This document shows, piece by piece, positions 1 to 38,930 of a stretch of DNA of 64,000 bases. The notes beneath the pieces were generated by a model. The model did no database searches. It was not told the origin of the DNA and saw nothing but the letters and a program-made list of their open reading frames with translations. The DNA is from Capnocytophaga bilenii (GTDB lineage Bacteria; Bacteroidota; Bacteroidia; Flavobacteriales; Flavobacteriaceae): the NCBI RefSeq assembly GCF_017565765.1, contig NZ_JAGDYP010000001.1, positions 28,358 through 92,357 of the forward strand, given 5' to 3'. The translations under genes were made by a program, and so were the position numbers. Position 1 is the first letter of the stretch, and every line of letters begins with the position of its first letter.

Positions 1-1044
1 CAACCCTCTATTTTCTTCAAAATAAACCAAGTATATAAAGATTTTGATAGTAGATACACAGAAATTCATACCTTGCGAAATATCATTGAACGTATCTTAA
101 AAAATGGCTATACTCCTAATGCTGAAAATACTCAAAATTCTATAATTAACGAGCAATACACTACAGTATCTGCACTTGATTTTGCTCTGAAACTAAAGAA
201 AAATAGTGTTTCAGAAAATAGTTTTATAGACTATAATTATCGTGTTAAGCAATTTCAAAAATACTTGATAGATAAAAACTTAGATAAATCTCCTATAAGC
301 AGTTTAACAAAGAGACATATTAATGACTTCTTGAATGAAATACTACTGAGAACAAGCCCTCGTAACCGAAATAATACACTTACAGTCATCAATGCCATAT
401 TTGCTACATTAGAAGAAAATGAGATTGTACAACAAAATGTAGTTGCAAAAATTAAGAAGCTGCAAGCTAAACCAGAACGCAATAAAACCTACACACAGAA
501 GCAACAAGACGATATTTTTACTCTTATGACACAAAAGGATAAGGAGTTACTTTTGTTTGTTAAGTTTGTTTCTTATAACTTTTTACGCCCTATAGAGGTA
601 TGCAGATTGCAAATTAAAGATATTGATTTTGAAGGTGCTAAAGTAAATGTACGCGCTAAAAATAAACTGGTAAAGATTAAGATAATACCAGAAATACTTC
701 TTAAAGAAATTCAACATTTAAAAGGGGCTAATCCTGATTACTTCTTATTTGCTCCCAATGGTGTTGATGATTGGCAGACAAGCGAGGTAAATAAACGTGA
801 TTATTGGACTAAACGCTTTGGAAAATTAAAGAAAGAACTCAATTTAGGAGAAGATTACGGACTTTATTCTTTTAGACATACCTTTATTACTAAGTTATAC
901 AGAGAGTTACGTTCTAAATACTCACAATATGAAACCTATGATAGGTTAATGCTTATTACAGGACATTCTACGCTTTCTGCTTTACAGCAATATCTAAGAG
1001 ATATTGACGCTGAACTTCCTGAAGATTATTCACATTTATTATAA
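1..1044 (+). CDS. Tyrosine recombinase (ICE integrase), 5' end outside window
   Basis: Site-specific recombinase that would integrate and excise the element. The frame is open from base 1 and the first possible start inside the window is a TTG at 73, so the gene probably begins upstream and this is a partial CDS. An N-terminal core-binding domain (about bases 160-460) precedes the catalytic domain. Visible catalytic elements are the Arg in FLRPIEVCRL, the second box YSFRHTF, ITGHS, and the nucleophilic Tyr in LQQYLRDI. The His of the usual HxxR box is Tyr here, a tolerated change in some family members. The gene is followed at once by a minisatellite. A tRNA-Met fragment at 42.7 kb gives the likely right end, so this is probably the integrase of the whole element; that pairing is inference. 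Confidence 0.88.
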   Translation, partial: QPSIFFKINQVYKDFDSRYTEIHTLRNIIERILKNGYTPNAENTQNSIINEQYTTVSALDFALKLKKNSVSENSFIDYNYRVKQFQKYLIDKNLDKSPISSLTKRHINDFLNEILLRTSPRNRNNTLTVINAIFATLEENEIVQQNVVAKIKKLQAKPERNKTYTQKQQDDIFTLMTQKDKELLLFVKFVSYNFLRPIEVCRLQIKDIDFEGAKVNVRAKNKLVKIKIIPEILLKEIQHLKGANPDYFLFAPNGVDDWQTSEVNKRDYWTKRFGKLKKELNLGEDYGLYSFRHTFITKLYRELRSKYSQYETYDRLMLITGHSTLSALQQYLRDIDAELPEDYSHLL

Positions 1045-1620
1045 CCCTACACAAGGGGGGTGGGGAAAATACACCTACCCTATGCAAGGGGGGTGCGGAA
1101 AATACACCTACCCTACGCAAGGGGGGTGCGGAAAATACACCTACCCTACACAAGGGGGGTGCGGAAAATACACCTACCCTATGCAAGGGGGGTGCGGAAA
1201 ATACACCTACCCTATGCAAGGGGGGAGCGGAAAATACACCTACCCTATCCAAGGGGGGTGCGGAAAATACACCTCCCCTACAAGGGTGCGGGAAAATACA
1301 CCCCCATGCAAGGGGTTGCGGAAAATACACCTACCCTATGCAAGGGGTGCGGGAAAACACCTACCCTATGCAAGGGGTGCGGAAAATACACCTACCCTAC
1401 ACAAGGGGTGCGGAAAATACACCTACCCTACACAAGGGGGTGCGGAAATACACCTACCCTATGCGGGGTGCGGGAAATACACTACCCTACACAAGGGGGG
1501 TGCGGAAAATACACCTACCCTATGCAAGGGGGGTGCGGAAAATACACCTACCCTATGCAAGGGGGGTGCGGAAAATACACCTACCCTTCACAAGGGGGGT
1601 GCGGAAAATACACCTACCCT
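1045..1620. repeat. 33-bp minisatellite array (about 18 copies)
   Basis: Tandem array starting directly after the integrase stop. The G-runs of the first copies start at 1055, 1088, 1121, 1154, 1187, 1220 and 1253, an exact 33-bp period. About nine middle copies are shortened to 28-32 bp, and the last four are again regular. The core is GGGGGGTGCGGAAAATACAC followed by CTACCCTATGCAA, with variation mostly at TATGC/TACAC. It is clearly more GC-rich than its surroundings and strongly strand-asymmetric (G6 on the plus strand). Because the period is divisible by three and the unit lacks stops, it creates long spurious open frames on both strands. There are no unique spacers, so it is not a CRISPR array. 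Function unknown. Confidence 0.95.
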
Positions 1621-2151
1621 ATTTTCAATAATAATTTGATAATCAATCAATTAAAAATAAAATCTAATTTTTAAGCTCTTTTCTTCCTAATTATATATTA
1701 TTATATATATAAATAAAAATAAGCACACACATTTTTTCTTTCTGCATTTTTACCCAATCTGAGAGTATGATTTACCTTATTTTTACTAACTATTTGTAAA
1801 TCAGATTTTTGTGGAGCTCTTAAATAATCTCGTTTTTTAGGGGCAAGATGTGCCTTTGTATATACACAGTTTTTGCAAAACGGTATACAAAGGCGCATCT
1901 TGCTTTTTAGTCTTCTATCTCAAAAACTTGCCTGCGGCTGCATTTTTGTGAAAGAAAACTAAAAAGGGGAAAAAACTTCGGAACTCGTTTTTTCTTTCTA
2001 TAGGAAATTTAGTTTTAGTTTTTGAGTTCTTTTGGGAACTCAAAAAAGCAAATAGGCTGATAAAAAACAGAAAAAAGCACTGTACTATATCGTTCAAATT
2101 TGTTCAATATAGTACACTACTTGCAAATATGCTTTACTATATCGTTCAAAT
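1621..2151. other. Non-coding region with dyads; candidate oriT region
   Basis: About 530 bases with no convincing gene between the minisatellite and the mobilization genes. It holds a long dyad (1843-1903), a hairpin flanked by A/T runs (2019-2046; TTTTTGAGTTC pairs with GAACTCAAAAA), and two related dyads at 2082-2168. In Bacteroidetes conjugative elements the transfer origin commonly lies just upstream of the mobilization genes, so this is the best oriT candidate. No nick site can be read with certainty. Confidence 0.45.
1843..1903. repeat. Inverted repeat, 20-bp arms, upstream of mob genes
   Basis: The left arm 1843-1862 and right arm 1884-1903 are complementary over 20 bases except for one position that still allows a G-U/G-T wobble. 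The loop is 21 bases. Both arms contain the CAAGATG(T/C)GCCTTTGTATA type sequence. It could be a relaxosome recognition structure or a terminator-like hairpin; its position before the relaxase operon favours the first. Confidence 0.75.
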
Positions 2152-2168
2152 ATGTTCAGTATAATAAA
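2082..2168. promoter_or_regulatory. Two related dyads overlapping the start of the MobA-like gene
   Basis: Copy one (2082-2115) is a near-perfect palindrome with arms GTACTATAT and ATATAGTAC around CGTTCAAATTTGTTCA. Copy two (2133-2168) repeats TACTATATCGTTCAAAT(A)TGTTCA with a weaker right arm and overlaps the ATG at 2152. Two copies of a palindromic site over a start codon suggest an operator for autoregulation by the RHH protein encoded next, or part of oriT. This is inference from position and symmetry. Confidence 0.55.
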
Positions 2169-2664
2169 CCCCTATTGCACAGCAAAAAAAACCTTTTTTA
2201 CTTTGCCTCGAAAAACAGATAAAACCTTGAAAGAAAACTACTCTACACATAAGAACAAACATATTATTCTCCGAGTGAGTGAATCCCAAAAACAACACTG
2301 GAAAAAACTATGTGCAGAAAGAAAGATTACCCTTACTGATTTGCTAACAAGTGCTGTCGAGGGTAAGATGAGTTCTCAGGAACAACGCGAGGTTTTAAAG
2401 TTCATTGAAAAACAGGATAATATCTTTGCTAAGATTGAAAACAACATCAACCAGTTTGCCCATTTGGCTAATGCCAAAAAAGAAGTCTACCGAGATGAAC
2501 TGATAGCCTTCACAGAACGTTTAGACCAGATTGTTAAACTTAAAGCAGAGCAAAACAAAATCTTTATACAGATTTATAAACTCATAGCTGCCAATGATAG
2601 TCAAAATACTAAACTCAGCAAGCAAAGACTTTCACGGGGTGAAGTACAACGACAAGAAGATTAA
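2152..2664 (+). CDS. MobA-like relaxosome accessory protein (ribbon-helix-helix)
   Basis: Small basic protein of 170 residues. Residues about 38-75 (HIILRVSESQKQHWKKLC, then KITLTDLLTSAVE) read like a ribbon-helix-helix DNA-binding segment, and the remainder is a helical, probably coiled-coil region. Proteins of this kind sit next to the relaxase in Bacteroidetes mobilization modules and bind oriT. Its 3' end overlaps the relaxase gene by 71 bases, indicating translational coupling. The ATG at 2152 lies inside a repeated dyad, so the true start could be a little downstream, but no other ATG occurs before the RHH segment. Function is inferred from context and fold-like pattern. Confidence 0.7.
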   Translation: MFSIINPYCTAKKTFFTLPRKTDKTLKENYSTHKNKHIILRVSESQKQHWKKLCAERKITLTDLLTSAVEGKMSSQEQREVLKFIEKQDNIFAKIENNINQFAHLANAKKEVYRDELIAFTERLDQIVKLKAEQNKIFIQIYKLIAANDSQNTKLSKQRLSRGEVQRQED

Positions 2665-4120
2665 CAACGAAAAGGGCGAGTTGATGCTAATGAAAAACTT
2701 TCCGTCTTTCATCAATGCCCAAAGCTCACAAGAGGAGGTTCGTAATTATCTTAAAAGTATTTCACAAAGCAACCGAAGCAAAAAACCTCAGTTTCACGCT
2801 GTCATTTCTACTAAATACCAGGAACACTCTAAAGAGCAGCTTACAGCTATAGCCGATGAGTTTATGAAAAATATGGGATATGAAAGTCAGCCTTATATAG
2901 TGGTTTTTCACAAGGATACCGAAAATAATCACGTGCATATTGTCTCCTCAAGGGTAGATAAAGAGACGGGTAAAAAGATTAATGATAGCTTTGAGAAACT
3001 TAAATCACAGCAAGCATTAACATTAGCTATTGAAAAAGTTTTAGGTCTCAACCGTATTGCTAAACTAGATAAACTACTACAGTATCGCTTTAGCAACTTA
3101 CAGCAGCTTGATAAATTATTAGAACGACACGGTTTTAAACTTTCACAAAGTGAACAGAATTCTAATCAATTACAAATACTACATAACGGAGTAGTACAAA
3201 AAATTTTATTAGCAGACCAACTGCCAATGCAAGATACACCTAAAGCTGATAAGCGAGCTCAACAGATAAAGTCCTTTATTGAAAAGTATCAACAGATGTA
3301 CAGCAATAAAGTTTTTAAAGTAGTAGATGATAGAGCTGAAAAAGGACTATATCCCAAAGAACATCAAGGAGTACCTAAGATAGAATTTACTAGTGAGCTC
3401 CAAGAAAAATTAAAAAACATATTTGGAATAGATATAATATTCCATTATAAAGATGATAAATTACCTTTTGGATATACACTTATTGATAATAAAACACAGC
3501 AAGTGTATAAAGGTAGCGAAATTATGAAGCTCAAAGAAGCTTTTGAATTAACCAATAGTAATATTGATAAAAAGAGCTTTGAACGATTAAAAGATTATAA
3601 TTTAAGTTCTTACAGAGAAAAGCAAATCTTATCACAACATTTGAATAAAAAAGGAGTACAAGCTGAACCTTTTATGCTCTTTGAAAATAAGCGACTTAAA
3701 AACAATAAATCCGATTTTCAACAGATTAAAACAGATGTAATCCAACATCTTAAGGCTCTTAAAAACGACAGCTTTGTAGTCTTAGAAAAAGATAAAAATG
3801 GTGATTTCTATGCTATTCATCAACGATTTCATCAAATACATAGCTTACAAAGCCTTATAGGCAGTGAAGCCTACCAAAATTTTATAAGTCAACAAGAGAA
3901 ATCAACCAATGAAGCAAAAGTTATAACTATTAATGATAATACCTCTGGAACAGGAAGCGATACTGACATCAATCACAGAGAAAGTGTAAATGTTTCAGAG
4001 GTTTTAAAAGTCGCTTTAAAAAGCACTGAAAATGCTCTTAAAACGCTATTAAGCTCTAGTGCCCCCGTAGGGCGAGATAATACCGAAAACGAACTGAAAA
4101 AACGCCGTAAAAAAAGATAA
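2594..4120 (+). CDS. MOBP-type relaxase / mobilization nuclease
   Basis: DNA relaxase that would nick oriT, stay bound to the 5' end and lead the strand into the recipient. Residues 1-120 show the family pattern: a candidate catalytic Tyr18 in HGVKYNDKK, then FHKDTENNHVHIV (His106, His113 and His115), the metal-binding histidine motif of MobP/MbpB-like relaxases. The remaining 390 residues are a lysine-rich helical tail ending in a basic cluster (KKRRKKR), likely for DNA and coupling-protein contact. It overlaps the MobA-like gene by 71 bases and is followed 4 bases later by traA, so all three probably share a transcript. The 508-residue length is normal for the group. Confidence 0.9.
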   Translation: MIVKILNSASKDFHGVKYNDKKINNEKGELMLMKNFPSFINAQSSQEEVRNYLKSISQSNRSKKPQFHAVISTKYQEHSKEQLTAIADEFMKNMGYESQPYIVVFHKDTENNHVHIVSSRVDKETGKKINDSFEKLKSQQALTLAIEKVLGLNRIAKLDKLLQYRFSNLQQLDKLLERHGFKLSQSEQNSNQLQILHNGVVQKILLADQLPMQDTPKADKRAQQIKSFIEKYQQMYSNKVFKVVDDRAEKGLYPKEHQGVPKIEFTSELQEKLKNIFGIDIIFHYKDDKLPFGYTLIDNKTQQVYKGSEIMKLKEAFELTNSNIDKKSFERLKDYNLSSYREKQILSQHLNKKGVQAEPFMLFENKRLKNNKSDFQQIKTDVIQHLKALKNDSFVVLEKDKNGDFYAIHQRFHQIHSLQSLIGSEAYQNFISQQEKSTNEAKVITINDNTSGTGSDTDINHRESVNVSEVLKVALKSTENALKTLLSSSAPVGRDNTENELKKRRKKR

Positions 4121-5938: not shown

Positions 5939-6238
5939 ATGGAATTTTACCTGTACAAGGGGCTTAAAAAACCCCTTGTCCTTTTTGGACTGAAAGATAA
6001 GTATATTTATCAAGCTTTAGCTTGTGCAGCATTTGGTATTATTTGTTTAGCAGCTTTACCAAGCCTTATAGGATGGATAGGTTTTCTAATAGGAGTCGCC
6101 ATTGCAGGTGGAGGTGTATGGTACATTTTCTATCGTCAAGATAATGTAGGGCTCTATACTAAGCAGAAAAACAATGAGGAATTACATATTTTTCCTAAAC
6201 GCTTTAAAGTAAAAAGAAATGAAAACAAAAACGTTTAA
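5939..6238 (+). CDS. traF: TraF-family conjugation protein (DUF4133)
   Basis: 99 residues, with the family hallmark near the N-terminus (YKGLKKPLVLFGLKDKYI), two adjacent membrane helices (about residues 28-65) and a short basic cytoplasmic tail. DUF4133/TraF is a VirB3-like inner-membrane component that works with the VirB4-type ATPase TraG. Its 3' end overlaps traG by 20 bases, consistent with coupled translation of VirB3- and VirB4-like partners. Confidence 0.85.
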   Translation: MEFYLYKGLKKPLVLFGLKDKYIYQALACAAFGIICLAALPSLIGWIGFLIGVAIAGGGVWYIFYRQDNVGLYTKQKNNEELHIFPKRFKVKRNENKNV

Positions 6239-9230
6239 TTTTCCCTTTATTGGTTATGATTACGGGCAAGAACACGGCTGGAAGTTCGATTGCCTTATAG
6301 GGCAATATGGCAATCCTGTAATAGGTATTCGCATCAAAAATATTGTAGAACAATATTCTGCCGACCCCGATCGTTACGAGCAGTTTCATACAGTTTTAAA
6401 CCAAGTCATTGCTATTATAGGTGAGAATCACATCGTACAGAAGACTGATATTTTTGCTAAAAAGATATATGTAGCCGAAAAAGAAAATACCTATCTGCAA
6501 CAAAAATATTCTGAGCATTTTAGCGGGCGCACTTACAAAACTATTGATACCATTTTGTTATTTACGGACTTGCTTGATGACAAAAAAAGCAAATATAAGT
6601 TTTCTGAAAAAAACTATAAAGAGCTTCGTGATAAATGTGAGAAAGTATTTATGCTTTTAGAGCAAAATGAATGTACTCCTGAATGGTTGTTAGAAAAAGA
6701 TTTTGAGTATTACATCGGGGGAATGCTCACTATGCAATTTTCCTCTATGCCTGTATTTGACAATATTAAGTCTACTAATGAGTATTTACGTATCGGTAAC
6801 TCTTTTGTAAAGACTATTAGCTTTGTCGATGTAGAGAATATAGAGTTACCTTCTCAAATAGGCACCTATACAGCAATGGGAGGAAATGGTACTGTATCTG
6901 ATTTAGCTGTAGATAATTTTTCATTCTTAAATGAGTTAGAAAACTATCAAAGTATTGTTTATAACCAAGTTATTGCAATACCACCCCAAGTACAACGCCA
7001 ACGAGAGCTTGAAAAGAAAAAGAAAAAACACGAGGGGGTAGCTAAAAGTGCTCCTTCTAATGCTATAGTAGCCGAAGAAATAGACACTCTATTACAAAAC
7101 ATAGCTGTAGATGGACAATTGATAGTAGACGCCCATTTTTCTTTAGTAGTAGCTTGTGAAACTTTAGAAAAAATGGAAAAAACACAATCTACTATTGAAA
7201 ATAAACTGTTTACTAAAGGTATCATTATATCTAAAAATGCCTACAACCAAATGGAACTTTTTCGTGCTGCTATTATAGGTAATGCTGTAGAACTTAAAGA
7301 TTACGATTTATTCACCACTACTAGCGAAGCAGGCTTGTGTTTTTTTTTTAAAGAGAGTTACCCCGTAAGTGAGAAGTCTAATTTCTATTTGCGTTTTGCA
7401 GATCGTCAAGGGGTTCCTTTAAAAGTAGATACTGCTGACTTACCTTATCAAACAGGACGTATCAATAACCGTAATAAGTTTGTTTTAGGTCCCTCTGGAA
7501 GTGGTAAATCATTCCTGATGAATAATATTGTAGAACAATATCTCACTTATAATTACGATGTAGTAATTGTTGATACTGGCGACTCCTATTCGGGAACTTG
7601 TTCTTACAAAGGAGGACGATACATACAATATACTGAAGAAAAACCAATTACTATGAACCCCTTTGCGGTAAGTAAAGAAGAGTTTAATATTGAAAAAACT
7701 GAATTTCTTACCAATCTTATATTCCTAATATGGCAAGGAGCGGATGCGACAGTGTCCCCTACACAAAAATCTGTTTTAGATAATGCCCTCCTTGCCTATT
7801 ACCAACAACACTTTGAAGGACATACAGACTGGCATAAAGATAAAAATGATGAAGATTTATTGCTTTATCTAAATAAGTATAACATATATGACGAAGATTT
7901 AAATTACGATGAAGAACAAACTTATTATGATGTATTAGGGCTTCCTTACAATGCTACTACTGATGAAATAAAAAAACGAGCACGTAAATTAATACAAGAA
8001 TACCATCCTGATAAAAATCGTAATAAAAAAGATTATAATCCTGAAAACTATTTTAAAATATATGAAGCTTATGATACGCTTGCCGATGAGGAAAGGCGCA
8101 AAGCTTATAATGAAAGTGCCGCACTTATTATGGTACGCAACGAAAGAGAAGTAGCTATTATAGAAGAAGACGAATTAGGTAATGGTGATAGCCATAGGAG
8201 GCAGATTATTAAACGAATAAAAAAGATTGAAGATGATTTTAATGTACCTGCATTATCCTTTAATTCCTTTTATGAGTTTTGCGAAAAGTTCCTACCCGTG
8301 TATCTAAACAATCGACATCATAAAATCACAGAAGAAGAGTTTAATCTTCGTACATTTTTATTTGTGCTAAAAGACTTTTATAAAGGTGGACGTTATGGTA
8401 CTACACTCAATCAAAATGCTGATAACTCATTGTTTTATGAGCCTTTTATTGTTTTTGAGATTGATAATGTTAAGGATAACCCTAAACTATTTCCTATCGT
8501 TACCCTTATTATTATGGATACATTCATTCAGAAAATGAGATTAAGGAGTGATAGGCGTAAAGCACTAATTATTGAGGAAGCCTGGAAAGCAATTGCTTCT
8601 AAGCTAATGGGAGGATACATTTTGTATTTGTACAAAACAGTACGTAAGTTTTGGGGCGAAGCGGTAGTAGTTACCCAAGAGTTAGATGATATAATTGGTA
8701 ATGCCGTAGTTAAAGACTCTATCATCAACAATTCTGATACCTTTATTCTGCTCGACCAAACCAAGTTTAAAGATAATTTTGACCGCATAGCAGCTTTGCT
8801 ATCTCTTAACAAAGTAGAACAAAATAAGATATTTACTATCAATAATTTAGATAATAAAACAGGCAGAGGGCGCTTCAAAGAGTTTTATCTAAAACGTGGC
8901 CCACGAGGCGAAGTTTATGGTAATGAGGTATCAATGGAGCAGTATCTTACTTATACCACCGAAAAACCCGAAAAGTCAGCTATACTACACTATGTAAATG
9001 CTTTAGGTTCTTATGATAAAGCCTTAGATGCTTTTGTAGCCGATGTAAAAAAATATAAGGAAAAAACAGACGCTATATACGCACTGGTAAACCTTTATAA
9101 AAAACCATTAGACGACAAAGTTGTAAAATTCTTTAAGGACTTTAAAAAAGAAAATCCTAAAGACACTTTGAAGAAATTCGACCTATACGTGAAAGAGCAA
9201 AACAAACCTCTTGCGGAAATAATTCCATAA
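6219..9230 (+). CDS. traG: TraG, VirB4-like conjugation ATPase with an inserted J-domain
   Basis: ATPase that would power assembly of the type IV secretion channel. Residues 1-400 form the VirB4-type N-terminal domain. Walker A is GPSGSGKS (residues 424-431) and Walker B is KALIIEEAW near residues 779-787. At 1,003 residues it is longer than the roughly 800-850 usual for TraG-family proteins. The extra length is explained by a J-domain at about residues 569-633 (YYDVLGL, helix II, the signature HPD at 596-598, then YFKIYEAYDTL and ERRKAY), placed between Walker A and Walker B and flanked by acidic and charged linkers. The frame is uninterrupted and ATPase motifs are intact, so the insertion looks functional. 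It follows traF with a 20-base overlap. The J-domain suggests recruitment of DnaK/Hsp70; this is inference. Confidence 0.93.
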   Translation: MKTKTFNFPFIGYDYGQEHGWKFDCLIGQYGNPVIGIRIKNIVEQYSADPDRYEQFHTVLNQVIAIIGENHIVQKTDIFAKKIYVAEKENTYLQQKYSEHFSGRTYKTIDTILLFTDLLDDKKSKYKFSEKNYKELRDKCEKVFMLLEQNECTPEWLLEKDFEYYIGGMLTMQFSSMPVFDNIKSTNEYLRIGNSFVKTISFVDVENIELPSQIGTYTAMGGNGTVSDLAVDNFSFLNELENYQSIVYNQVIAIPPQVQRQRELEKKKKKHEGVAKSAPSNAIVAEEIDTLLQNIAVDGQLIVDAHFSLVVACETLEKMEKTQSTIENKLFTKGIIISKNAYNQMELFRAAIIGNAVELKDYDLFTTTSEAGLCFFFKESYPVSEKSNFYLRFADRQGVPLKVDTADLPYQTGRINNRNKFVLGPSGSGKSFLMNNIVEQYLTYNYDVVIVDTGDSYSGTCSYKGGRYIQYTEEKPITMNPFAVSKEEFNIEKTEFLTNLIFLIWQGADATVSPTQKSVLDNALLAYYQQHFEGHTDWHKDKNDEDLLLYLNKYNIYDEDLNYDEEQTYYDVLGLPYNATTDEIKKRARKLIQEYHPDKNRNKKDYNPENYFKIYEAYDTLADEERRKAYNESAALIMVRNEREVAIIEEDELGNGDSHRRQIIKRIKKIEDDFNVPALSFNSFYEFCEKFLPVYLNNRHHKITEEEFNLRTFLFVLKDFYKGGRYGTTLNQNADNSLFYEPFIVFEIDNVKDNPKLFPIVTLIIMDTFIQKMRLRSDRRKALIIEEAWKAIASKLMGGYILYLYKTVRKFWGEAVVVTQELDDIIGNAVVKDSIINNSDTFILLDQTKFKDNFDRIAALLSLNKVEQNKIFTINNLDNKTGRGRFKEFYLKRGPRGEVYGNEVSMEQYLTYTTEKPEKSAILHYVNALGSYDKALDAFVADVKKYKEKTDAIYALVNLYKKPLDDKVVKFFKDFKKENPKDTLKKFDLYVKEQNKPLAEIIP

Positions 9231-9245
9231 ATAAAACCATATACT

Positions 9246-9902
9246 ATGAAAAATAAAATATTACTCTCAACCCTTGCTATATTACCTTTTACAACTATAG
9301 CTCAAAATCTTTATTTTGATGCTGCTACATCACTTACACTAAAAAATTACGCTAATAGTATAGAAAAAGGACAAGAAAAAATTGAAAAAGAGCAAAATAA
9401 GCTACAAAAAGCCCAAGCTTTTATTGCTACTCAGTTAGCTGCTGCTAACAAAATTCAAGATAAAATATATCACGGGCTCTCTGAAGTATCTGGTACACTC
9501 CAAAATGGTATGCAAATTAAGCGAATAATAGAAGAAACAAAAGAATGCTTAGAATACCATAAAGAGGTAAATGATATGATACGTAAACACCCCCAATATG
9601 CTCCTTTTGCCCATAAAGCAATAAAAGGGGCTTATGAGCAAGCTTTACAATTAGGAGCTGAAATAGCAAGTGTAAAAACAGGAGGAAAAGAACATTTAGC
9701 TACTGCAGGAGATAGGTATATGTTACTAAGTCGTATAGAAAGTAAAGTTATAGGACTAAAACTATGGTTTCTTTCTATAAAATTAGCAATGGAAAATGTA
9801 ATCAGAATAGGTGTTATCAGAGCATTAAACCCTTTTCAAAGTTATATAGATACTGATAAGGATATTATACAAAATATTTTAGAGAGATATAAAAACTTCT
9901 AA
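9246..9902 (+). CDS. Secreted TraI/VirB5-like conjugation protein (paralogue 1)
   Basis: 218 residues with a signal peptide (cleavage after ILPFTTIAQ) and an almost wholly helical mature part with a coiled-coil segment (GQEKIEKEQNKLQKAQ). It resembles the DUF4141/TraI class of periplasmic VirB5-like proteins that follow traG in Bacteroidetes elements. Its C-terminus (YIDTDKDIIQNILERYKNF) shares a pattern with the next two proteins (YIxxDKxxVExIM), so the three look like diverged tandem paralogues. It starts 15 bases after traG. Confidence 0.7.
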   Translation: MKNKILLSTLAILPFTTIAQNLYFDAATSLTLKNYANSIEKGQEKIEKEQNKLQKAQAFIATQLAAANKIQDKIYHGLSEVSGTLQNGMQIKRIIEETKECLEYHKEVNDMIRKHPQYAPFAHKAIKGAYEQALQLGAEIASVKTGGKEHLATAGDRYMLLSRIESKVIGLKLWFLSIKLAMENVIRIGVIRALNPFQSYIDTDKDIIQNILERYKNF

Positions 9903-9912
9903 TTTCAAAACA

Positions 9913-10617
9913 ATGAGAAAATATAGTTATATCATAGGAATTTTTCTTTTAGCTTGTGGTGTCTCTTCATTTGGGGGTAAAAAAAAACCAAAACCTGAAA
10001 CCCGTTATGTTCAAAAAGAAGGAACTTCTATAAACAATATAAGTCAAGAAGTTAAAGCTACAATGGACGAACACGAGCGGCAAAAGCGAATGAATAATAA
10101 ACAATCTGCCAATACCACTTCCGAAGCTGTAAATAACAAACAATGGAAAAAACTCAAAGAGACGACTACTAAAATACAAGACCGATTACGAATTGTTGAC
10201 TTTGCTCTACAAGCTATCCCTACAGGCTATGTAGTGGGGATTAAGTCTAAAGAAATAAAGGAGACCCAACAGCGCATTTTGCAAGAGTTACAAACCACAC
10301 CTCAAGCTATTAAAAAAGTATTCAGTAACCAAATTCAATTTGCAGACGACCTACAAATGGTTATGCGTTACCTTACAGGGCTTGTAGTGTCTTATGGGAT
10401 TATTAACCAAATGGAACGTAAAGAACGGCAAATACTGCTCAATTATGCACTTGATGAGGTAAATAGACTAGCTAATGAATCATTTTATACTCTTATGCTT
10501 ATTCGCGACTACAAAGCACGTTTAGAATACCGAAAAAATATGTTTAAATACTATATAGAACGAGATAAGAACTTAGTAGAAGACTTGATGAAAAATATTA
10601 AATCGCTTAACTTATGA
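9913..10617 (+). CDS. TraI/VirB5-like lipoprotein (paralogue 2)
   Basis: 234 residues. The N-terminus has a hydrophobic signal followed by LLACG, a plausible lipobox, so it may be a lipoprotein. A polar stretch follows, then a helical domain ending with FKYYIERDKNLVEDLMKN, the same C-terminal pattern as the flanking genes. It overlaps the next gene by 4 bases (ATGA). Likely a periplasmic part of the transfer channel; the specific role is not known. Confidence 0.65.
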   Translation: MRKYSYIIGIFLLACGVSSFGGKKKPKPETRYVQKEGTSINNISQEVKATMDEHERQKRMNNKQSANTTSEAVNNKQWKKLKETTTKIQDRLRIVDFALQAIPTGYVVGIKSKEIKETQQRILQELQTTPQAIKKVFSNQIQFADDLQMVMRYLTGLVVSYGIINQMERKERQILLNYALDEVNRLANESFYTLMLIRDYKARLEYRKNMFKYYIERDKNLVEDLMKNIKSLNL

Positions 10618-11276
10618 GAATATTTGTTTTATTAATTATTTTTCTTTCTGCAGTACAGATAAAGGCACAAGATATCGCTGTAGCTATTAATCCTACATTA
10701 ATGATAGAATTAGGTAAAAATCAGTACGTAAGGGAGAGTGCAGTGAATAATGTTAAAGATATGTATGAAAAACAAAATGATTGGTATAAAAAAGCTGAAA
10801 TTAAAATGGCTCAAGTTCTTTTAGTACACGAGCAAATATACCAAGCTCTATATAATGTCAATTCTTTATTTAAAAATGCCAAACAATTGCAGCAAATATC
10901 TAGAGATTTGATGATTTGCAAACAAAATACACTTAAAGCTGTAAGCTTAGGAATTAAAAAAACACCGTATTCCGTTTGGATGAAAAAATACTTTTTATAT
11001 GACTTATCTTTAAGAATTGATGAACTTAGAAAGATATTCAGTGATGCTTTAAATAAAGAACTACTTATGGATGCTTACGATAGGGAGATGTTATTAGATA
11101 ATGTCAATTTTAAAATACAAATGATTAATATGTCAGCTTTAAATATTATAAGCATTATTAAATACAATGAAAGTCGTGCATATATATACTCTATTCCAAT
11201 CTTTGGCGACTATATAGAGCAAGATAAAATGATTGTAGAACAAATTATGCAACAATATGATAACCTTTATAAATAA
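10614..11276 (+). CDS. Secreted TraI/VirB5-like conjugation protein (paralogue 3)
   Basis: 220 residues with a signal peptide (cleavage after IQIKA/Q region, VQIKAQ) and a helical mature domain. Residues near 60-100 (QVLLVHEQIYQALYNVNSLF) match in spacing the corresponding helix of paralogue 1 (NKIQDKIYHGLSEVSGTLQ), and the end DYIEQDKMIVEQIMQQY repeats the shared C-terminal motif. Start overlaps the previous stop by 4 bases. Function by analogy with DUF4141/TraI proteins only. Confidence 0.65.
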   Translation: MRIFVLLIIFLSAVQIKAQDIAVAINPTLMIELGKNQYVRESAVNNVKDMYEKQNDWYKKAEIKMAQVLLVHEQIYQALYNVNSLFKNAKQLQQISRDLMICKQNTLKAVSLGIKKTPYSVWMKKYFLYDLSLRIDELRKIFSDALNKELLMDAYDREMLLDNVNFKIQMINMSALNIISIIKYNESRAYIYSIPIFGDYIEQDKMIVEQIMQQYDNLYK

Positions 11277-16759: not shown

Positions 16760-16786
16760 ATTTACTAATATACTAATTTGCCTATT

Positions 16787-18787
16787 ATGAGTATGCAAGA
16801 ACAACAAAACCAGATTAAAATATACGACTTCTTCCAAAAAATGGTCTACGGAGTCGTTACATTAGACTGTCTTACGCTTTTCTTTGTCAATGCCAAAGTA
16901 CCTGTAATATCCAATATACTGCAAAGTTTCTCAAAAATGGGAGTGTTTTATCCCCCTATCAATGCCAAGCTTACTACCTTAGTACTTATTGCCTTGGTAG
17001 CCATAGGCACAAAAGCAAAGAAAAAACGAGACCTCAATCCCACCAAAGAAATATTTGTACCCATAGCTATAGGGCTAATAATGATCATTCTTTCATTAGT
17101 CTTAGCCACAGGGGCTGCCGATACTTCTTTACCTACACCTATACCCTATTTCAATACCTATCAAATAGGCTATATGATACTTTCCTATGCAGGAGCAATG
17201 ATTACCCAAAAAGGAGCCGACAGCATATCAAAACTAATGCAAACCAAAATGGATAAAGACCGCTGGAATACCGAAGAAGAAAGCTTTGATCAAAATCGCG
17301 AATTGATAGAAACCCCAACTTCTGTTAATATCCCCTACAAGTTTCGTTATAAAAAACAAACACACCAAGGCTGGATGAATATTGATCCTTTTAGAGGTAC
17401 AATGGTCATTGGTGTCCCTGGTTCGGGTAAAACCTGGGGAGTGATTAACCCAGCTATTCGCCAGTTGATAGGGAAAGGATTTTGCTTGTGTATATACGAT
17501 TTTAAGTTTCCTAGCTTAGGCGAAATAGCCTATTACCATCACCTACTAAAGAAGAAAAATGACCCTAACTACAAGCACAAGTTTCACGTGGTAAACCTCG
17601 ACCAAGTAGAATATTCCCGTCGCGTTAATCCATTCAAAAAAGAATACATAAACACCTTGGCGCAAGCACAAGAGATGGCAGAGTCTATGGTAACTGCCTT
17701 ACAAAAGGGGGGAGGTAGCGGAGGAGGTGGCTCTGAAGCATTCTTTACTCAATCAGCAGTAAACTTCCTTGCCTCTACTATCTATTATTTTGGTACCTAT
17801 GAGGACGGCAAGTACTCAGACCTCCCACATATACTATCATTTATGAATCGTAGTTACCAAGAGATATTCGATACCCTCTTTACCAATGAAGAGCTTACAT
17901 CGCTGATGTCGCCTTTTAAGTCTGCTTATGAGAATAAAGCATTCGACCAGCTTGAAGGACAAGTAGGTACTGTTAAAATATTCCTATCACGCTTAGCTAC
18001 CAAAGAGAGCTTTTGGGTATTTAGTGGTGACGAAGTGCAACTTAAAATATCTGACCGCACCGACCCTTCAATCCTTATCTTAGCATCAAATCCACGTACG
18101 CAGGATATTAACTCCGCTTTATATTCAGCCGTACTCAATAGGGTAATAAGCCAAATTAATGACAAAGGGAACCTATACAGCGGACTTATAGCTGATGAGT
18201 TCCCTACTATCTACATTCATAAAGTAGATAACCTAGTAGCTACAGCCCGAAGCAACAAAGTAGCCGTAATGCTCGGTCTACAAGAGCAACCACAGCTCCG
18301 TCAGTTCTATAAGAAAGAAGTAGCCGATACCATTTCAGCAATTATGGGGAATATCCTATCAGGAGCCGTGCGCGATAAAGGCACCCTCGATTGGCTCGAA
18401 AAGATGTTCGGTAAAATCAAACAAAAAAGCTACTCGGAGTCTATCTCCAATCAAGGTAGTAATATGACCATAAGCGAAAGAATGGATGTAATGATACCAG
18501 CAGGTAAAATAGCAGGCTTACGCACAGGAGAAATGGCAGGAATGGTAGTACAAGGCAACGACAATGCAACCGAAGAATTTAAAACATCAGCCATTTTCGG
18601 CAAAATAAACCTCGATATGAAAGCTATTAAAGAAGAAGAAGATAATTACGTGAAAATGCCTCTGTATTACTCATTCAAAGACAGTGCAGGCAACGACCGC
18701 AAAAACGAAATACTAATGGCAAACTTCCGCCGTATCAATAAGGAAGTAGAAATGATGATTAACGAAATAAAAGAAGCTGTAGCCTAA
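16787..18787 (+). CDS. Type IV coupling protein (VirD4/TraG-type, MobC-like)
   Basis: About 666 residues from the ATG at 16787 (a TTG at 16778 and ATG at 16793 are also in frame). Three to four N-terminal membrane helices (to about residue 145) anchor a cytoplasmic AAA+ ATPase with Walker A GVPGSGKTWG (near residue 205) and Walker B LIADEFPTIYIHK (near 470). A YWFxP-like TraG/TraD domain and Gly-rich loop (GGGSGGGGSEAFF) lie between. It delivers the relaxase-DNA complex to the channel; the homologous protein in CTnDOT is called MobC. Its stop overlaps the next start by one base (TAATG). Confidence 0.9.
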   Translation: MSMQEQQNQIKIYDFFQKMVYGVVTLDCLTLFFVNAKVPVISNILQSFSKMGVFYPPINAKLTTLVLIALVAIGTKAKKKRDLNPTKEIFVPIAIGLIMIILSLVLATGAADTSLPTPIPYFNTYQIGYMILSYAGAMITQKGADSISKLMQTKMDKDRWNTEEESFDQNRELIETPTSVNIPYKFRYKKQTHQGWMNIDPFRGTMVIGVPGSGKTWGVINPAIRQLIGKGFCLCIYDFKFPSLGEIAYYHHLLKKKNDPNYKHKFHVVNLDQVEYSRRVNPFKKEYINTLAQAQEMAESMVTALQKGGGSGGGGSEAFFTQSAVNFLASTIYYFGTYEDGKYSDLPHILSFMNRSYQEIFDTLFTNEELTSLMSPFKSAYENKAFDQLEGQVGTVKIFLSRLATKESFWVFSGDEVQLKISDRTDPSILILASNPRTQDINSALYSAVLNRVISQINDKGNLYSGLIADEFPTIYIHKVDNLVATARSNKVAVMLGLQEQPQLRQFYKKEVADTISAIMGNILSGAVRDKGTLDWLEKMFGKIKQKSYSESISNQGSNMTISERMDVMIPAGKIAGLRTGEMAGMVVQGNDNATEEFKTSAIFGKINLDMKAIKEEEDNYVKMPLYYSFKDSAGNDRKNEILMANFRRINKEVEMMINEIKEAVA

Positions 18788-24979: not shown

Positions 24980-27900
24980 ATGGCAAAACAACAATTATTA
25001 TCCCCACAAGATATTGAAAATATAGTTAATAATACCTCCATAGTCGAGTACTTTCACTACCTTGCCCAAAAAGGACACTTAAAATTTGACCGACAGCGAG
25101 GGCACGATTACTATTTTCTTAGTAACAACGAAAAATATTCAGTAAGCGATACCCCTAGAAAAGGTTATTACGACTTTAAAGCGGGGGAAGGCGGACAAAT
25201 TATTAAAGCAGTAATGAAATTTGAGAACAAGTCTTGGAAAGAAGCAGTAGATTTTCTTAAAGATTTTTCTAACACCTATATTCCTGAAAAACAAAACACT
25301 CAAAATAAAATATCTACACCTGTACAAGAAGCCGATTTCACTCCTAAAAACGTTCTTGTTCGTACATCTGTACCCAATAATGACAAACTATTAGCTTATT
25401 TTGCTAGTCGTGGTATTTCAAAAGAGATACTACAACAATATGCCCAACAAGTGCAGTATCATAATAAAACATCAGGTAAAGATTATTTCGGTATAGGTAT
25501 ACCTAATCAATCAGGAGGCTATGATGTCAAAAGTCTTCTAGACAAGCCTTATGATAAAGCTAAGGTAGGAGTAAGTGATATATCTATTATTCCTGGTACT
25601 CGCAACGAAGCCGTAGTCTTTGAAGGAATGACCGATATGTTTTCTTATTTACAAATGGCTAAAGACAATGGGAAACCTAATGATCGTACATTAGTCGTAC
25701 TAAACTCTGTAACCAATACAGGCACTTTCATTCAGCAATTTCAGAACTACACAGGTAAAATACATCTTTTTTTAGACGGCGATAAAGCAGGCAATAACGC
25801 AACCCAATCTATACTTAACAATCTGAAAAATAGTATAGACCAACGAGGGGCTTATGGTATAGGTAAAGGGGAAGTAAATGACCTTAATGACTTTCATATA
25901 AAAGTGTTCAAGCCCTTGCAAAATCAAAATAAAAGTCGTACATTTGCCAATGAAAATAACGTACAAATTAACTCACAAAATGGAAGCTTTACAACTGAAT
26001 CCAATAGAGTATCCTCACCTAAGTCAGTGGGAGAACAAACACCTGAACCAAACCTTAGAGAAACTATCACAACAAGCCAACCCCAGCAAGACGGAAATAA
26101 CACAAGCCGACAAGCTATGGGCAGCAACAATGTTGGAAATGGACTTAGCAGCACAAAGCGGAGCGATTTTGGAGGACGAGGAGGAAACTCCGAAATGGGC
26201 AGCGATAACGGAACACAACAGGAAGTACTATCAGGAGTTGGAAGTACAAGGAAGGACCCTAATGCCAGCCGAACCCGAAGTGCCGGAGGAAGTACTTCAG
26301 GAAGCCCTCAGACAACAAGAGAAGGGAAGGAAAATGAAAGAGATATTCAATCTTCACAAGCAGAAGGACGAAGCGAAACTCAGCAGAATACTTCTCAAGG
26401 AGACAGACCCCGAAGTGAAAGAGATAGTAAGACAGCTATTACTGGATTTGAACGATTTACCCTTATAAACAAAGTCGCTTCCCTCTCCAAAATAGCAAAA
26501 GGCAACAAAGTCAGCAATGAACAAATAAAAGATTTGGTAAATTTGCTGACTTTTGTCGATAAAGACAATACTATAAAAATCAAGGAGGGGGTAACCATTA
26601 CTGACAATATCAAAGATATAATCAATCATTACAAAAGTGGGGGTATTACCAAAGATAATCGAGGGGTATTAGACGAGTATTACACTGATAAAAAGTTGGT
26701 AAATGCCGTTCACAATCTTATCAAAGATAATTTTAAAGGCAAAACTGCTATCAATATATTAGAACCCAGCGTAGGTATGGGCAATTTCCTACACGCTACC
26801 ACCGATTTAGGAGTAAAAACGAATGTAACCGCCTTTGAAATCAATGATACTACTGCTAAAATAACCAAACTTCTACATCCTGATACACAAGTAAACCTAC
26901 GTTCGTTTGAAACAGAATTTGTTACTGATAATGGTACCAAAAAAGATTTTACCCCCCAATATGATTTGGTAGTGGGTAACCCTCCTTATGGTAGCCACAG
27001 AGGGCTTTATTTAGGTTTAGGTGAAGAAACAAAACTAACTCGCTATGAAGATTATTTTGTAAAACGTTCCCTCGATGTAATGAATGAAGGAGGTACCTTG
27101 GCAATGGTACTCCCTTCTAGTTGGCTTAATAGAGCCGACAAGCTTTCAGGTGCAGAGCTAACAGATGCCTACCGATTGCCAAATGGAGCTTTTAAAGCTA
27201 CTGATATAGGCACTGATATTATTATTCTTAAAAAGGACAGCCAACGGCAATCACACGATATAACAACCTATTTCCAACAGAACCCCGAAAAGGTATTGGG
27301 TGAGACTGTGTTGAAAAAAAATAGATTTGGGCGTGAAGAAGACTATATCAAAGGAAATCTGGACGAAGCCCTCAATCGCTTGCAAGAATTTACTTCACAG
27401 AAAACACAACAAGTTCCACAGAAAGCACAACAAGTTTCACAAGGTGTACAACTTGATATGTTTGCAGCGTTTGATAATGCCCCCACGCTTCCAGCGACTA
27501 AAGTTTCTATTGCAGAAAAAAAAGAAAAAGTTCCTAATGATGAATACAATACTTTGCTTACAGAAGCTCAAGAAAAAGTAAAACAGACAATTATTGTTTT
27601 TCAAAATATTAAATTCAAATCATTAGCTATTCTTACTGAATGGGATAATTATGCTGCTTTATTGAAGAAACTTGAAAGAAAAGGTGCAAAATTTACTAAG
27701 GAAGAGCTTACTGATATAACCAAAAAAGCTAATAATATAATAAAGTCATACAGCCCTAAACCTGAGAAGGTAGAAGAAAAATCACAAGATGTTACAATCC
27801 CTACTAAAAGTGCCAGGCACAAACAATCTGAAGAAAATACAGGTGAATACAAGGTACAATCAACCCCTGATATTAGTAAAAAAGTACTTAAATACCAATT

Positions 27901-30900
27901 TGTTAAGAATGATACAGTGGTTGATACGGCTTTACAAAACAATCATAATCTCACTACAGGGCAAGTAAAAGCCTTTGCTGATACTAATTATGATGGTGAG
28001 TTAAATAACTACCAAGAGCACCAGCAATATGCAAATTATTATAAGGGTAAATATATACACGACTTTTACTATGCTGAGGGGAATATATACGAAAAATTAG
28101 AACGTTTGACTATTGATTTTGCAGGCAGATTAGACAATGAGGAAGTGAAATCACAGTATAACAAGCAAAAGGCTTTACTTGAAAGCGTTTTACCGACTAA
28201 AAAACAGTTAGAAGATATTGTTATATCACCTAACCACGAATTTGTGCATAACTTTGGCTTGGAAAAAGTTGAAAAAGAGGTTTATAACCAATATATGAGG
28301 CGTTATGATATGGTTAAAGTAGATTATAATTTAGCCGAAAGTTTTAAAGACTTTGTTTCAAAGCTACCTTCACAAGCTCTTGAACCTTCTTCTTCTTGGG
28401 AAGTGAAAGAATTTGTAGACAATCAAACTGTAACAGGGAGTGATAAAGAGCGTAATGCCCTAATACGTGAACGCCGTAAAGAGGTAGCCAATAACCTCTT
28501 TCAGAAGTTCCTTCGTGAGGAACTCCCAAATGATATTAAAGAACGTTTTGTAAATGAGTTCAACCGTAAGTATAATAACCTCCACATTCCTGACTACTCA
28601 CAGTTTCCTTTATTTTCTAAGATAAACCAAAACTTTAAAGGCAAACCTTTAGAGTTGACAGAAGTACAGCGTGCAGGTATTGGACGATTGACAACAAAAG
28701 GGGTAGGGTTATTAGCTCACGAAGTTGGATTTGGTAAAACCCTATCAGGAATACTTGCTATGCACGAAGCTATGGAGCGGGGCAATGCCAAACGCCCCCT
28801 TATAGTTGTACCTAATGACAGCATTTTAAAGCAATGGGTAGAGACTATCTACGAGGCTATTCCTAATGCTAAAGTGAATGTATTAGGTAACCTTGGTAAA
28901 GATTATGACCTATCTCATTTTGATAATAAAGACGGTGAAATAACCTTAGTTACTTACGAAGGTTTTCAGAACATTGGTTTTAGAGATGAAATTACGCAAA
29001 AATTAGCTGAGAAATTCTCTTATATAAACAAAAAAGATGTGGATAGCTTAGAAAATCCTATTACAGGAGGTGTTTCTGATGAAACAATGCGTGAAATAGA
29101 AATAGCCATTGCAAAAGAAAAGAAAATACAAGGAATAATGAAAAGAGGTAAAGTCTATGACTGGGAAGATTTTGGGTTTGACCACCTCACTTTTGACGAA
29201 GCACATAATGCCAACCATATTGTAGACAAAGTACGTATCGAAGACAGGCGTTTTAACTCTGATTTTCGCAGCCAAAACCAACGCCCCTCAAAATTAGGAC
29301 TCAATACGTGGGTAGCCTCGCAATATATACAAGATAAGTACGATGGGCGCAATGTTACTTTACTTTCTGCAACCCCTTTTACTAATAAACCATTGGAGTA
29401 TTATTCTGTATTATCTCTAATTGCTAATCAGCGATTAGAAAAATCAGGCTATTTCAATGTAAACAATTTCTTTGAAACCTTTATGGAGGCTGACAACGAT
29501 ATGGAGATTGACGCTAAAGGTGATATCAAGTTTAAAACCAATGTACGCAGATTTAAGAATAACGCCCTATTTCAGCAGCTCCTATCCGAGTTTATCGACA
29601 TCAAAGGCGAAGAGGATAATCCTAAGTTAGTACGCCCTAATCGTATCAATAAAGAATATAAGATAGAGCAGAATAAATTAACTGAAAGTATGTACAACAC
29701 TCTTAACCTACTTTTAGATGACACTAAAGATGGTGCTATCTTAACTCATATTCTTAATGCCCGCAAAATTGCTATTTCACCCTATCTGTATGAAGAATAT
29801 GAAGGAGAAAAACCTTCTACTAAAGAATTTGTAGAAAACTCGCCTAAAATTAAACTCACTATGGACTTAATACGGCAGAATAAAGCTGATAAACCCGAAG
29901 CAGGACAAATTATTTATTCAGAATTGGGTGTTTCAGAGTTTCCAAGACTCAAAGAATACTTAATAAATGAAGTAGGCTATAAAGCTGATGAAATAGGTAT
30001 TATTACGGGGGGTATAAGCAAAAATCAACGTTTGGATATACAAGAGAAGTTTAATGCAGGAAAAGTAAAGGTAATCATTGGTTCAGAGGCTATACAAGAG
30101 GGTATGAATTTGCAGGAAAAAACCTCTGATATGTATCTTTTAACTGTTCCTTATAACTTCACCTCATTACGGCAAATAGAAGGACGTTATTGGCGACAAG
30201 GTAATCAATGGGAAAATGTACGTGTGAACTATATGCTTACTAATGATAGTATAGATGTATTTATGCTACAAAAGCTGCAAGCTAAACAGTCACGCTATAT
30301 GGAGGCAATGAAAAAAGGGGCTAATGTTATTGATGTATCAGATATAGATACACAAGAGCTTAAAACAGCTATTATTACCGACCCTGAAACACGTGCTAAT
30401 ATTGAAATAGAGTTATTGAAGAAACGCTATGAAAATGAGAAAACCAAACACGCTGCCGATTTAGGTTTTATCTCTCGTAAGTTTGAAGATTATACCAAAG
30501 TATATGCTGAATATTTAAAAGAGAAAAAAGACTATGAAAATATGGAAAAATGGGCTGAAAAAGATGATTATTGGAAAAAAAATCTACCTTTTAGAGCGCA
30601 GCAAGTAGAAAAGGCTCAAAAATCAGTTGAGCAGGTAATTGAAAAACTGGCAAAGAAAGGTGTTAATATAGCCGATTTTCAGCACCAACAAGAGACTGCA
30701 GAAAGAAAAATAGCTGCTTTAGATAAAACTATCGAAGAGGAGCTGCCTATTATCCGAGAAAGGCTCATAACTCAGTACAAACAAGAGAAGCAGGAACGGC
30801 TAAACGCTCCGCAGATAGACTATGTACAAGAGCGTGCTGAAGAGAATAAAACGTTTTTTAAAATACGCCCTCCAAAAAATGAAGTATCAAAAGAGGCTGC

Positions 30901-37607: not shown

Positions 37608-38930
37608 TTAAAAGGTTATTAAATTAGTAAATTTTGAGGTTGCCATATTGACACTACAACGCTCGGAGAGTATGCCTCCGTGTCGGTTCTTAGATATGAT
37701 AATCTCTACTTCATTATTGGTATTTTCGTTGTTGTATTCTTTACCCCATTGCTCAATGCCATAGTATTCTGGACGATATAAAAAAATTACCTCATCTGCG
37801 TCTTGCTCTATGGCTCCTGAGTCTCGCAAATCAGAGAGCACAGGACGCTTATCATTGCGTTGCTCTACATTACGTGATAACTGTGAAAGAGCTATAATAG
37901 GGATATTGAGTTCTTTAGCTAAACCTTTTAAAGAACGTGAAATAAATGATATTTCTTGTTCACGATTACCTGCTTTAGGATGGCTAATAAGCTGGAGGTA
38001 ATCTATAAATAGAATACCAATATTATGGCGTAGTTTCATTGCTTTAGCTTTGATTTTGAGGTTATCAATAGATAAGCTCGATGTTTCGTCTATGTGTATA
38101 TTCATCTTTATTAGATTATCTTTGAGGGATAAGTATGTCATTATTTGTTCATCATTAAGTCCTTTACGAAGTATTGCTGAGTTGGGTATATTAGTATAGT
38201 TGGTAATGATTTTAGAGGTAATTTGTTCAGCAGACATTTCCAATGAGAATATACCTACTGAATAACCTTGTTTTACCATATCAATGATTTGTTGTACTAA
38301 AAAAGTAGTTTTGCCCATACCAGGACGACCTGCCACAATAGTAAGGTTTGAATTTTGCCAGCCTCCTAATACTTTATTAATTATATTCAGGGAGCTTTGC
38401 AACCCTGTAGGTTTACCCTTAAGAATGCTTTCAAAATTTTCTTGTACAGCATTAACTAATTCAGGAAATTTACGTGTTTGACGATTATTTTCAATAAATT
38501 TATCTATAAATAGGTTATTAAAATAGTCAAAAGCTTTATCACGTATATCAAATATATCATTCTCTATTCCGTGTGCCATATTTAATAAAGTTGTAAATTT
38601 CAGCACAAAATCACGCCTTACAGAAGCCTGAACTAATAGCATTATGTGGAACTCTACATTAGCAGATGACACAGCAAAAACGGACAAATCAATACAATAC
38701 TGTAAAAGCTCAGGTACATTTCTTTTTTCAAGTGCTTTTCCAAGTAAAATTAAGTCCATTGTATTATACTTTTTCCATACTTCTACAATGCTATTATATA
38801 TTATCTGATGTTCAGGAGCAGTGAACAAATTAGCACTTAGCATATTGTAATACTGGGCTATTACTTGAGGTTCAGAAACAAGATTGCCAAGTACATATTT
38901 TTCTATATCTATATCGATTAAACTATTCAT
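37608..38930 (-). CDS. DnaB-type replicative helicase
   Basis: 440-residue hexameric helicase. An N-terminal DnaB domain (ending near residue 130) precedes the RecA-like core with Walker A GRPGMGKTT near residue 200, Walker B IGILFIDYLQLI and the Arg-finger region SRNVEQRNDKRP. It is of the short phage/plasmid type and begins within the last 8 bases of the upstream gene, a probable loader. It would drive replication of the element or of a phage-derived replicon; the host has its own DnaB elsewhere. Confidence 0.92.
   Translation of the reverse strand: MNSLIDIDIEKYVLGNLVSEPQVIAQYYNMLSANLFTAPEHQIIYNSIVEVWKKYNTMDLILLGKALEKRNVPELLQYCIDLSVFAVSSANVEFHIMLLVQASVRRDFVLKFTTLLNMAHGIENDIFDIRDKAFDYFNNLFIDKFIENNRQTRKFPELVNAVQENFESILKGKPTGLQSSLNIINKVLGGWQNSNLTIVAGRPGMGKTTFLVQQIIDMVKQGYSVGIFSLEMSAEQITSKIITNYTNIPNSAILRKGLNDEQIMTYLSLKDNLIKMNIHIDETSSLSIDNLKIKAKAMKLRHNIGILFIDYLQLISHPKAGNREQEISFISRSLKGLAKELNIPIIALSQLSRNVEQRNDKRPVLSDLRDSGAIEQDADEVIFLYRPEYYGIEQWGKEYNNENTNNEVEIIISKNRHGGILSERCSVNMATSKFTNLITF

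Follow-up and report, generated by a model that had tools for sequence, protein, structure and literature searches.

The best described relatives of the gene considered here are the TraG proteins of Bacteroidota conjugative transposons (TIGR03783, PF19044), ATPases of the VirB4 family to which TrwK of plasmid R388 also belongs, and, for one segment of it, the proteins of the DnaJ family, among which Sec63, part of a translocation device, and the SV40 large T antigen, in which a J-domain is tied to a DNA-handling ATPase, offer the best comparisons. Sec63 and Tim14 are J-proteins anchored at channels; the HPD tripeptide of J-domains is an exposed contact for Hsp70 and not a motif that keeps the fold. 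To our knowledge, the unfolding or extraction of relaxase and pilin at the conjugation channel is unsettled. We analysed a stretch of 64,000 nucleotides of Capnocytophaga bilenii (the window; positions 28,358 to 92,357 of the 464-kb contig NZ_JAGDYP010000001.1, in a genome of 2.73 Mb), which carries what reads as an integrative conjugative element whose traG gene encodes a VirB4-type ATPase with a J-domain inserted in it. Taken as a whole, we consider it likely that this TraG stimulates the host DnaK at the base of the conjugation channel and that slippage at a run of ten thymidines (T10) in the same gene adds a further layer. The parts belong to known families; what we found undescribed is their combination, which is kept across a large element family. 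Our searches of the open-licence literature listed no paper on a J-domain, or on slippage, in a VirB4/TraG protein, and the accessible part of the main text of a 2025 review of type IV secretion systems mentions neither DnaK nor Hsp70, frameshift or Bacteroid. With a J-domain built into the motor, the part played by host Hsp70 can be tested directly by way of the HPD tripeptide.

The J-domain within TraG

The original prediction, made from the letters alone, had placed an intact J-domain with HPD at residues 596-598 between Walker A (424-431) and Walker B (about 780) of TraG, in a frame and with ATPase motifs that are themselves intact, and it had named a DnaJ domain search, a structure prediction of TraG alone and a survey of homologues as checks. 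The translation agrees on every one of these points: the frame (Table 1) gives 1003 amino acids with zero internal stops, both Walker motifs are in place, and the NCBIfam model TIGR03783 scores 474.9 bits against a curated cut-off of 261.55. By its family score, its Walker A and Walker B motifs and its surroundings of transfer genes, which as in described systems include a DUF4134 gene upstream, TraG is a VirB4/TraG conjugation ATPase. The Pfam search places the J-domain at residues 568-631 with 59.8 bits against a cut-off of 27.8, and profile searches matched chains of Escherichia coli DnaJ (E about 1e-13 to 1e-12) and of Sec63 (about 1e-6). The basic residues of helix II (589-590) are present, as in DnaJ-family proteins; what differs from them is the setting, a type IV secretion protein that has the J-domain inside its ATPase domain. 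Neither DnaJ C-terminal nor zinc-finger families occur among the Pfam matches of TraG, and a Pfam scan of 24 neighbouring proteins, a subset of the open reading frames (ORFs) of the window, returned no second J-domain.

The structure prediction (AlphaFold2, 40 alignment rows) modelled helices at residues 569-573, 581-594, 608-622 and 624-641, with block means of 68-81 for the predicted local distance difference test score (pLDDT) over residues 571-630; most of residues 10-370 also scored fairly. When the model was searched with Foldseek, ranks 1-14 went to entries of the R388 inner-membrane complex or TrwK (E 9.9e-12 to 4.4e-10), as fits a VirB4 protein, and J-domain structures followed after rank 14 with probability 1.00 and E 0.0089 and up. 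The best of these was 2dn9 (E 0.0089, root-mean-square deviation (rmsd) 1.9 Å, the aligned model range not being printed), and the list also includes 5nro_B (E 0.041, rmsd 2.0 Å), in which a J-domain is bound to full-length DnaK. Matches to sulfur oxygenase reductase in the same list (E 0.014-0.04) were taken as noise (probability 0.44-0.63, rmsd about 20 Å). As far as model and alignments can tell, TraG is a J-domain protein, whose predicted J fold has helix II, helix III and the HPD loop, and with HPD kept among its orthologues. A chance motif is ruled out by the E-values together with the 40/40 relatives that match both families (below), and an intein, splicing or a pseudogene by the intact frame and purifying selection.

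Spread, origin and predicted role of the J-domain

A scan of genome contigs for TraG relatives gave 118, of which the best 80 were kept and analysed; with the window and two plasmids they form a J-type set of 83 rows (78 distinct sequences). In the alignment HPD stands at the same position in 83/83 rows, and all of the 40 relatives scanned with Pfam match PF00226 together with PF19044. Among those best 80 of 118, the nearest TraG is that of Capnocytophaga sputigena (84% identity). Close matches at E <= 1e-170 occur in 93 of 296 sampled Weeksellaceae genomes, at most two candidates being scored per genome; both the threshold and this limit can hide copies; HPD was read in the fetched copies, and elsewhere the J-domain is presumed from the long match. 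One of the 93, genome G799, has a copy without HPD (L156), to which we return below. An order-level scan matched 20/395 genomes at E <= 1e-180, and among 149 genomes of the window's own family a whole-protein match came from its own genome only. Matches to TraG were present in 1603 plasmid records, two of them at 60-80% identity, from Chryseobacterium and Sphingobacterium, and both carry the J-domain. Judged from these sequences, and beyond anything in the original prediction, a large element family, found in Weeksellaceae, in Capnocytophaga and on two plasmids, usually has its TraG in the J-domain form. A viral source of the J-domain was considered and set aside: of the two viral contig scans, one returned no relative and the other three matches to the J part alone, and neither held a J-type TraG.

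For comparison with TraGs lacking the J-domain (J-less), ten were chosen from about 60 J-less ORFs, duplicates (L059, L060) and more distant TraGs being omitted; five distant TraGs were added for the tree. The insert (residues about 533-678) extends beyond the J core on both sides and is entirely missing in six of the ten (L036, L037, L038, L058, L065, L069); in such sisters, of which Pedobacter pA27BH1 TraG is an example, nothing occupies the site at which the window TraG has its J-domain. The other four carry a different sequence there (L064 and L066 from Mucilaginibacter plasmids, L067 and L068 from Bacteroides plasmids). These inserts are roughly 100 amino acids long, and the site thus accepts varied inserts; a Pfam scan of L064 and L067 gave no DnaJ match. 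By alignment with TrwK, the insert maps near TrwK residue 560, between the TrwK Walker motifs, and its site probably faces the cytoplasm. In a tree built from columns outside the insert, 78 J rows split from 15 J-less rows with branch support 100, long branches being present, and with L156 added the J-type rows plus L156 stood apart from the J-less rows (100/100). A single gain of the insert is the simplest reading of these sequences.

Over 19 independent pairs, the ratio of nonsynonymous to synonymous substitution rates (dN/dS) was 0.046 for the J-domain and 0.106 and 0.091 for its flanks, compared with 0.026 for both ATPase parts, 0.052 for the N-terminal and 0.120 for the C-terminal part; on these estimates the J-domain is under purifying selection. 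In an alignment of 40 relatives, the J hallmarks Y570, L573, H596, P597, D598, A617, Y618, L621, R627 and Y630 are invariant, as are W538, L547, L551 and N555 elsewhere in the insert. The original prediction had left it at the ATPase tolerating or using its J-domain. Because HPD is invariant, the dN/dS of the J-domain lies below that of its flanks and the insert is consistent with a single gain and wide spread, use is strongly favoured over mere tolerance. Further, HPD being an Hsp70 contact, its invariance points to an Hsp70 partnership, and a J-domain that recruits DnaK is our best inference from HPD conservation and fold.

We propose that the J-domain and its helical flanks entered TraG between the two Walker motifs, most simply in one event, and that through HPD the J-domain would stimulate the DnaK of the host where substrates enter, at the cytoplasmic base of the channel. 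TraG would then resemble Sec63 or Tim14 in principle, as a J-protein anchored at a channel, and DnaK may help to hold or unfold proteins that must pass, such as the relaxase, or be extracted, such as pilin, VirB4 being the protein that extracts pilin. The accessible text of one paper states that relaxases are at least partly unfolded for passage (PMC12857230, citing Trokter and Waksman 2018), and with such a need a holding or unfolding chaperone at the channel makes sense. Which client is served, be it relaxase, pilin, the channel or TraG itself, is a guess.

The main rival to a substrate chaperone is that DnaK is recruited to TraG itself, for the folding of a large ATPase or for switching or dismantling its oligomers, and leaves transfer substrates untouched. 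HPD invariance and the J fold fit this equally well, and auxilin, which acts on clathrin, and DnaJ-DnaK, which act on plasmid initiators, are precedents for remodelling of oligomers. A need for remodelling is also conceivable since the accessible part of PMC9259494 describes R388 VirB4 in two forms, a trimer of dimers and a hexamer of dimers. That other VirB4/TraG proteins cope without a J-domain speaks against this rival, which we regard as possible but rather unlikely, and it speaks against our own proposal as well, for sister conjugation systems, as seen in the aligned J-less TraGs, manage without one. Other observations, too, weigh against recruitment of DnaK. L156 (G799, 204-3204, 50% identity) has a J-like insert without HPD, on which PF00226 reaches just E 0.089 (13.3 bits, below the cut-off), and residue 588, aligned to the helix-II Tyr of host DnaJ, is Gly in 51 of 78 sequences, Phe in 25, Ala in one and Tyr in one. 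Overall, the AlphaFold2 model is poor (mean pLDDT 60.3, predicted template-modelling score 0.42), its ATPase core is mostly below 50, so that the placement of the J-domain on the ring is not readable from it, and the Foldseek E-values for J-domains are modest (0.0089 at best). L156 is a long branch whose placement within the J side is unsure, and the other searched genome of its genus gave no TraG match. Neither L156 nor residue 588 is fatal to recruitment of DnaK, but they leave the strength of the Hsp70 contact less certain. The recruitment of host Hsp70 that had been predicted thus remains what the fold and the conservation of HPD best support, with one relative that departs from it.

L156 also bears on a second rival, in which the J-domain, while retaining its fold, works as a structural spacer or docking module and not via Hsp70. 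Its J-like sequence without HPD would suit such a module, as would the different inserts that the four J-less TraGs carry at the same site, and Tim16 has a J-like domain that lacks HPD. However, an Hsp70 contact that is not needed for the fold is invariant in all 83 rows, and it is the flanks, the would-be spacer, whose rate of evolution is about double that of the J-domain. We therefore consider this module improbable and prefer the reading in which the J-domain serves to engage DnaK.

A conserved T10 run in traG

The same gene contains a T10 run, which the original prediction did not remark on. In the window it reads TGT TTT TTT TTT AAA; among the 80 scan loci the run is T10 in 77, T9 followed by A in two and interrupted in one (L107). 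Codon tests were made on 75 distinct genes, the split L107 and the plasmid rows being omitted. Of 46 conserved Phe positions, solely 375, 376 and 377 are TTT in every gene, although the gene-wide share of TTT among Phe codons is 66% (3281/4953). Three consecutive Phe codons are all TTT in 74/74 distinct J-type copies at this site versus 6/70 elsewhere in the ORFs of these loci (1143 distinct, 1.23 Mb); one further T10 run in these ORFs reads LCFFF and was taken as a split traG. Residues 369-377 have the lowest synonymous diversity anywhere in traG (observed/expected 0.28, against a median of 0.87), and each of the 21 nine-codon windows with the lowest values begins within residues 359-379. The rows behind these three tests are related and are not independent trials. 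Together they suggest that selection acts on the run, which, as a homopolymer of at least nine T or A conserved beyond codon bias, has the sequence character of a slippage site. T9-T10 runs also occur in the J-less L037, L064, L065 and L066 and not in six other J-less TraGs, so that the run is independent of the J-domain.

Directly upstream lies a candidate RNA hairpin. The 24 nucleotides that end at the first T of the run, compared with synonymous randomisations, fold with a mean z of -1.78 in 28 distinct J-type sequences, 16 of them at p <= 0.1, whereas the J-less TraGs gave +0.79 (n = 10) and 0/10 at p <= 0.1. For 14 chosen J-type genes of the 83 rows the site had a mean z of -1.61, and 0/147 control windows (mean -0.06, standard deviation 0.32) were as low. 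We propose that the T10 run, aided by the hairpin, makes RNA polymerase slip, and that some traG mRNAs would then encode the N-terminal domain only (residues 1 to about 377). After a shift, the two other frames reach a stop after 0 and 6 codons in 58/75 genes, 0 and 14 in 15/75, and 7 and 0 in 2/75; since either frameshift would stop 0 to 14 codons on (75/75), the N-terminal product is predicted to have about 377-391 residues. Four observations count against slippage. Close stops are common in traG, with 47% of control points within 15 codons and a control median of 16 codons; the hairpin of the window copy is itself weak (-4.2 kcal/mol, p 0.14); a consensus terminator scan of traG found none; and L156 is without the T run.

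A split near residue 375 was first seen in four J-type TraG copies. In the 296-genome sample, 112 rows correspond to 110 copies, two rows being N-terminal pieces of split copies; 103 are full-length, six are split and one is that of G799. The copy of G854 (L107) was counted as full-length and has an in-frame TAA. The seven interrupted copies (L107, which is also L161, L153, L154, L155, L157, L158 and L159) are all broken at the T run, which is T9, T11 or T10 after C, although some of these run-length differences could be sequencing error, and in 7/7 the downstream piece retains HPD and Walker A. That seven of seven interrupted copies among 110 are broken where the run or its context has changed favours a rival in which T10 is a hypermutable contingency locus and replication slippage turns transfer off, with no programmed slippage of transcription. 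Replication slippage, though, needs neither the upstream synonymous constraint nor the hairpin signal, and we hold this to be the less probable account of the run; it can coexist with transcriptional slippage. On sequence and precedent, transcriptional slippage at T10 that gives an N-domain-only TraG is a likely second layer, separate from the J-domain.

The confident N-domain of the AlphaFold2 model ends near residue 375, and the run motif maps to TrwK residues of about 401-405, by the offset of the TrwK alignment and assuming no gaps. In the accessible part of PMC9259494, the N-terminal domain of R388 VirB4 is residues 15-400 and central and outside VirB4 subunits touch by their N-domains only. 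Precedents for two product lengths, described in the accessible text of PMC5009743 and PMC4256274, are Thermus dnaX, which slips at nine Ts (T9) into a short and a long product, and tssM1 of Citrobacter rodentium (A11), of which both product lengths are needed. TraG has in common with them a homopolymer of at least nine and predicted truncated and full products; unlike them, the run lies in a VirB4 gene, near the boundary between N-domain and ATPase, and its slippage is a prediction. From the domain boundary, the N-domain contact in R388 and these precedents, we propose that N-domain-only TraG may be an outside-type subunit. A mixed VirB4 ring, with slippage-made N-domain TraG outside and full-length TraG in the centre, its J-domain keeping DnaK tethered at the channel mouth to serve conjugation as a chaperone motor, is a speculative and rather doubtful extension. 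If T10 is programmed, two kinds of subunit could come from one VirB4 gene, and the secretion genes known to use slippage would gain a type IV secretion ATPase.

The element and its neighbourhood

The genes around traG (Table 1) lead us to read the region as an integrative conjugative element of Bacteroidota type. Further genes are a ParA/VirC1-like ATPase, DUF4134 (upstream of traG), TraM and DUF4138. A similar gene order is found on a Chryseobacterium plasmid, and the order DUF4134-DUF4133-traG is annotated in relatives.

Table 1. Positions in the window of traG, its motifs and other genes of the element
Feature	Position	Strand	Basis
Tyrosine integrase of the element	73..1044	+	PF00589 E 7.9e-11
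MobC-like gene just upstream of relaxase	2152-2664		match below family cut-off
MobA/VirD2-type relaxase	2594..4120	+	PF03432 E 2.2e-24
traG, encoding the VirB4-type conjugation ATPase that carries the J-domain (1003 amino acids)	6219..9230	+	TIGR03783 E 3.9e-142; PF19044 E 1.3e-129; intact frame
Candidate RNA hairpin directly upstream of T10 run (weak in window copy)	7317..7340	+	family folding signal
T10 run, codons 374-377 (C F F F), end of N-terminal domain; candidate slippage site	7340..7349	+	direct reading; tests of Phe codons, FFF runs and synonymous diversity
Walker A GPSGSGKS, residues 424-431	7488..7511	+	translation; unchanged across an alignment of 40 relatives
Insert, residues about 533-678 (N-flank, J-domain, C-flank)	7815..8252	+	comparison with ten J-less TraGs
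J-domain, residues 568-631	7920..8111	+	PF00226 E 2.9e-16; model helices; Foldseek to J-domains
HPD tripeptide, residues 596-598	8004..8012	+	present in 83/83 J-type rows (78 distinct)
Walker B region KALIIEE, residues about 781-787	8559..8579	+	translation
VirD4-type coupling protein, without J-domain match	16778..18787	+	PF10412, PF12696, PF02534

Three consecutive genes of about 220 amino acids each, without a convincing Pfam match, follow traG (9246-11276), and on related plasmids several unnamed genes of about 220 amino acids likewise stand behind traG. Further downstream, positions 24980-30979 encode a 1999-amino-acid protein with Toprim-like, Eco57I-type methylase and SNF2/helicase parts. 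A phage- or plasmid-like gene for a DnaB-type replicative helicase lies on the minus strand downstream of the transfer region (37608-38930).

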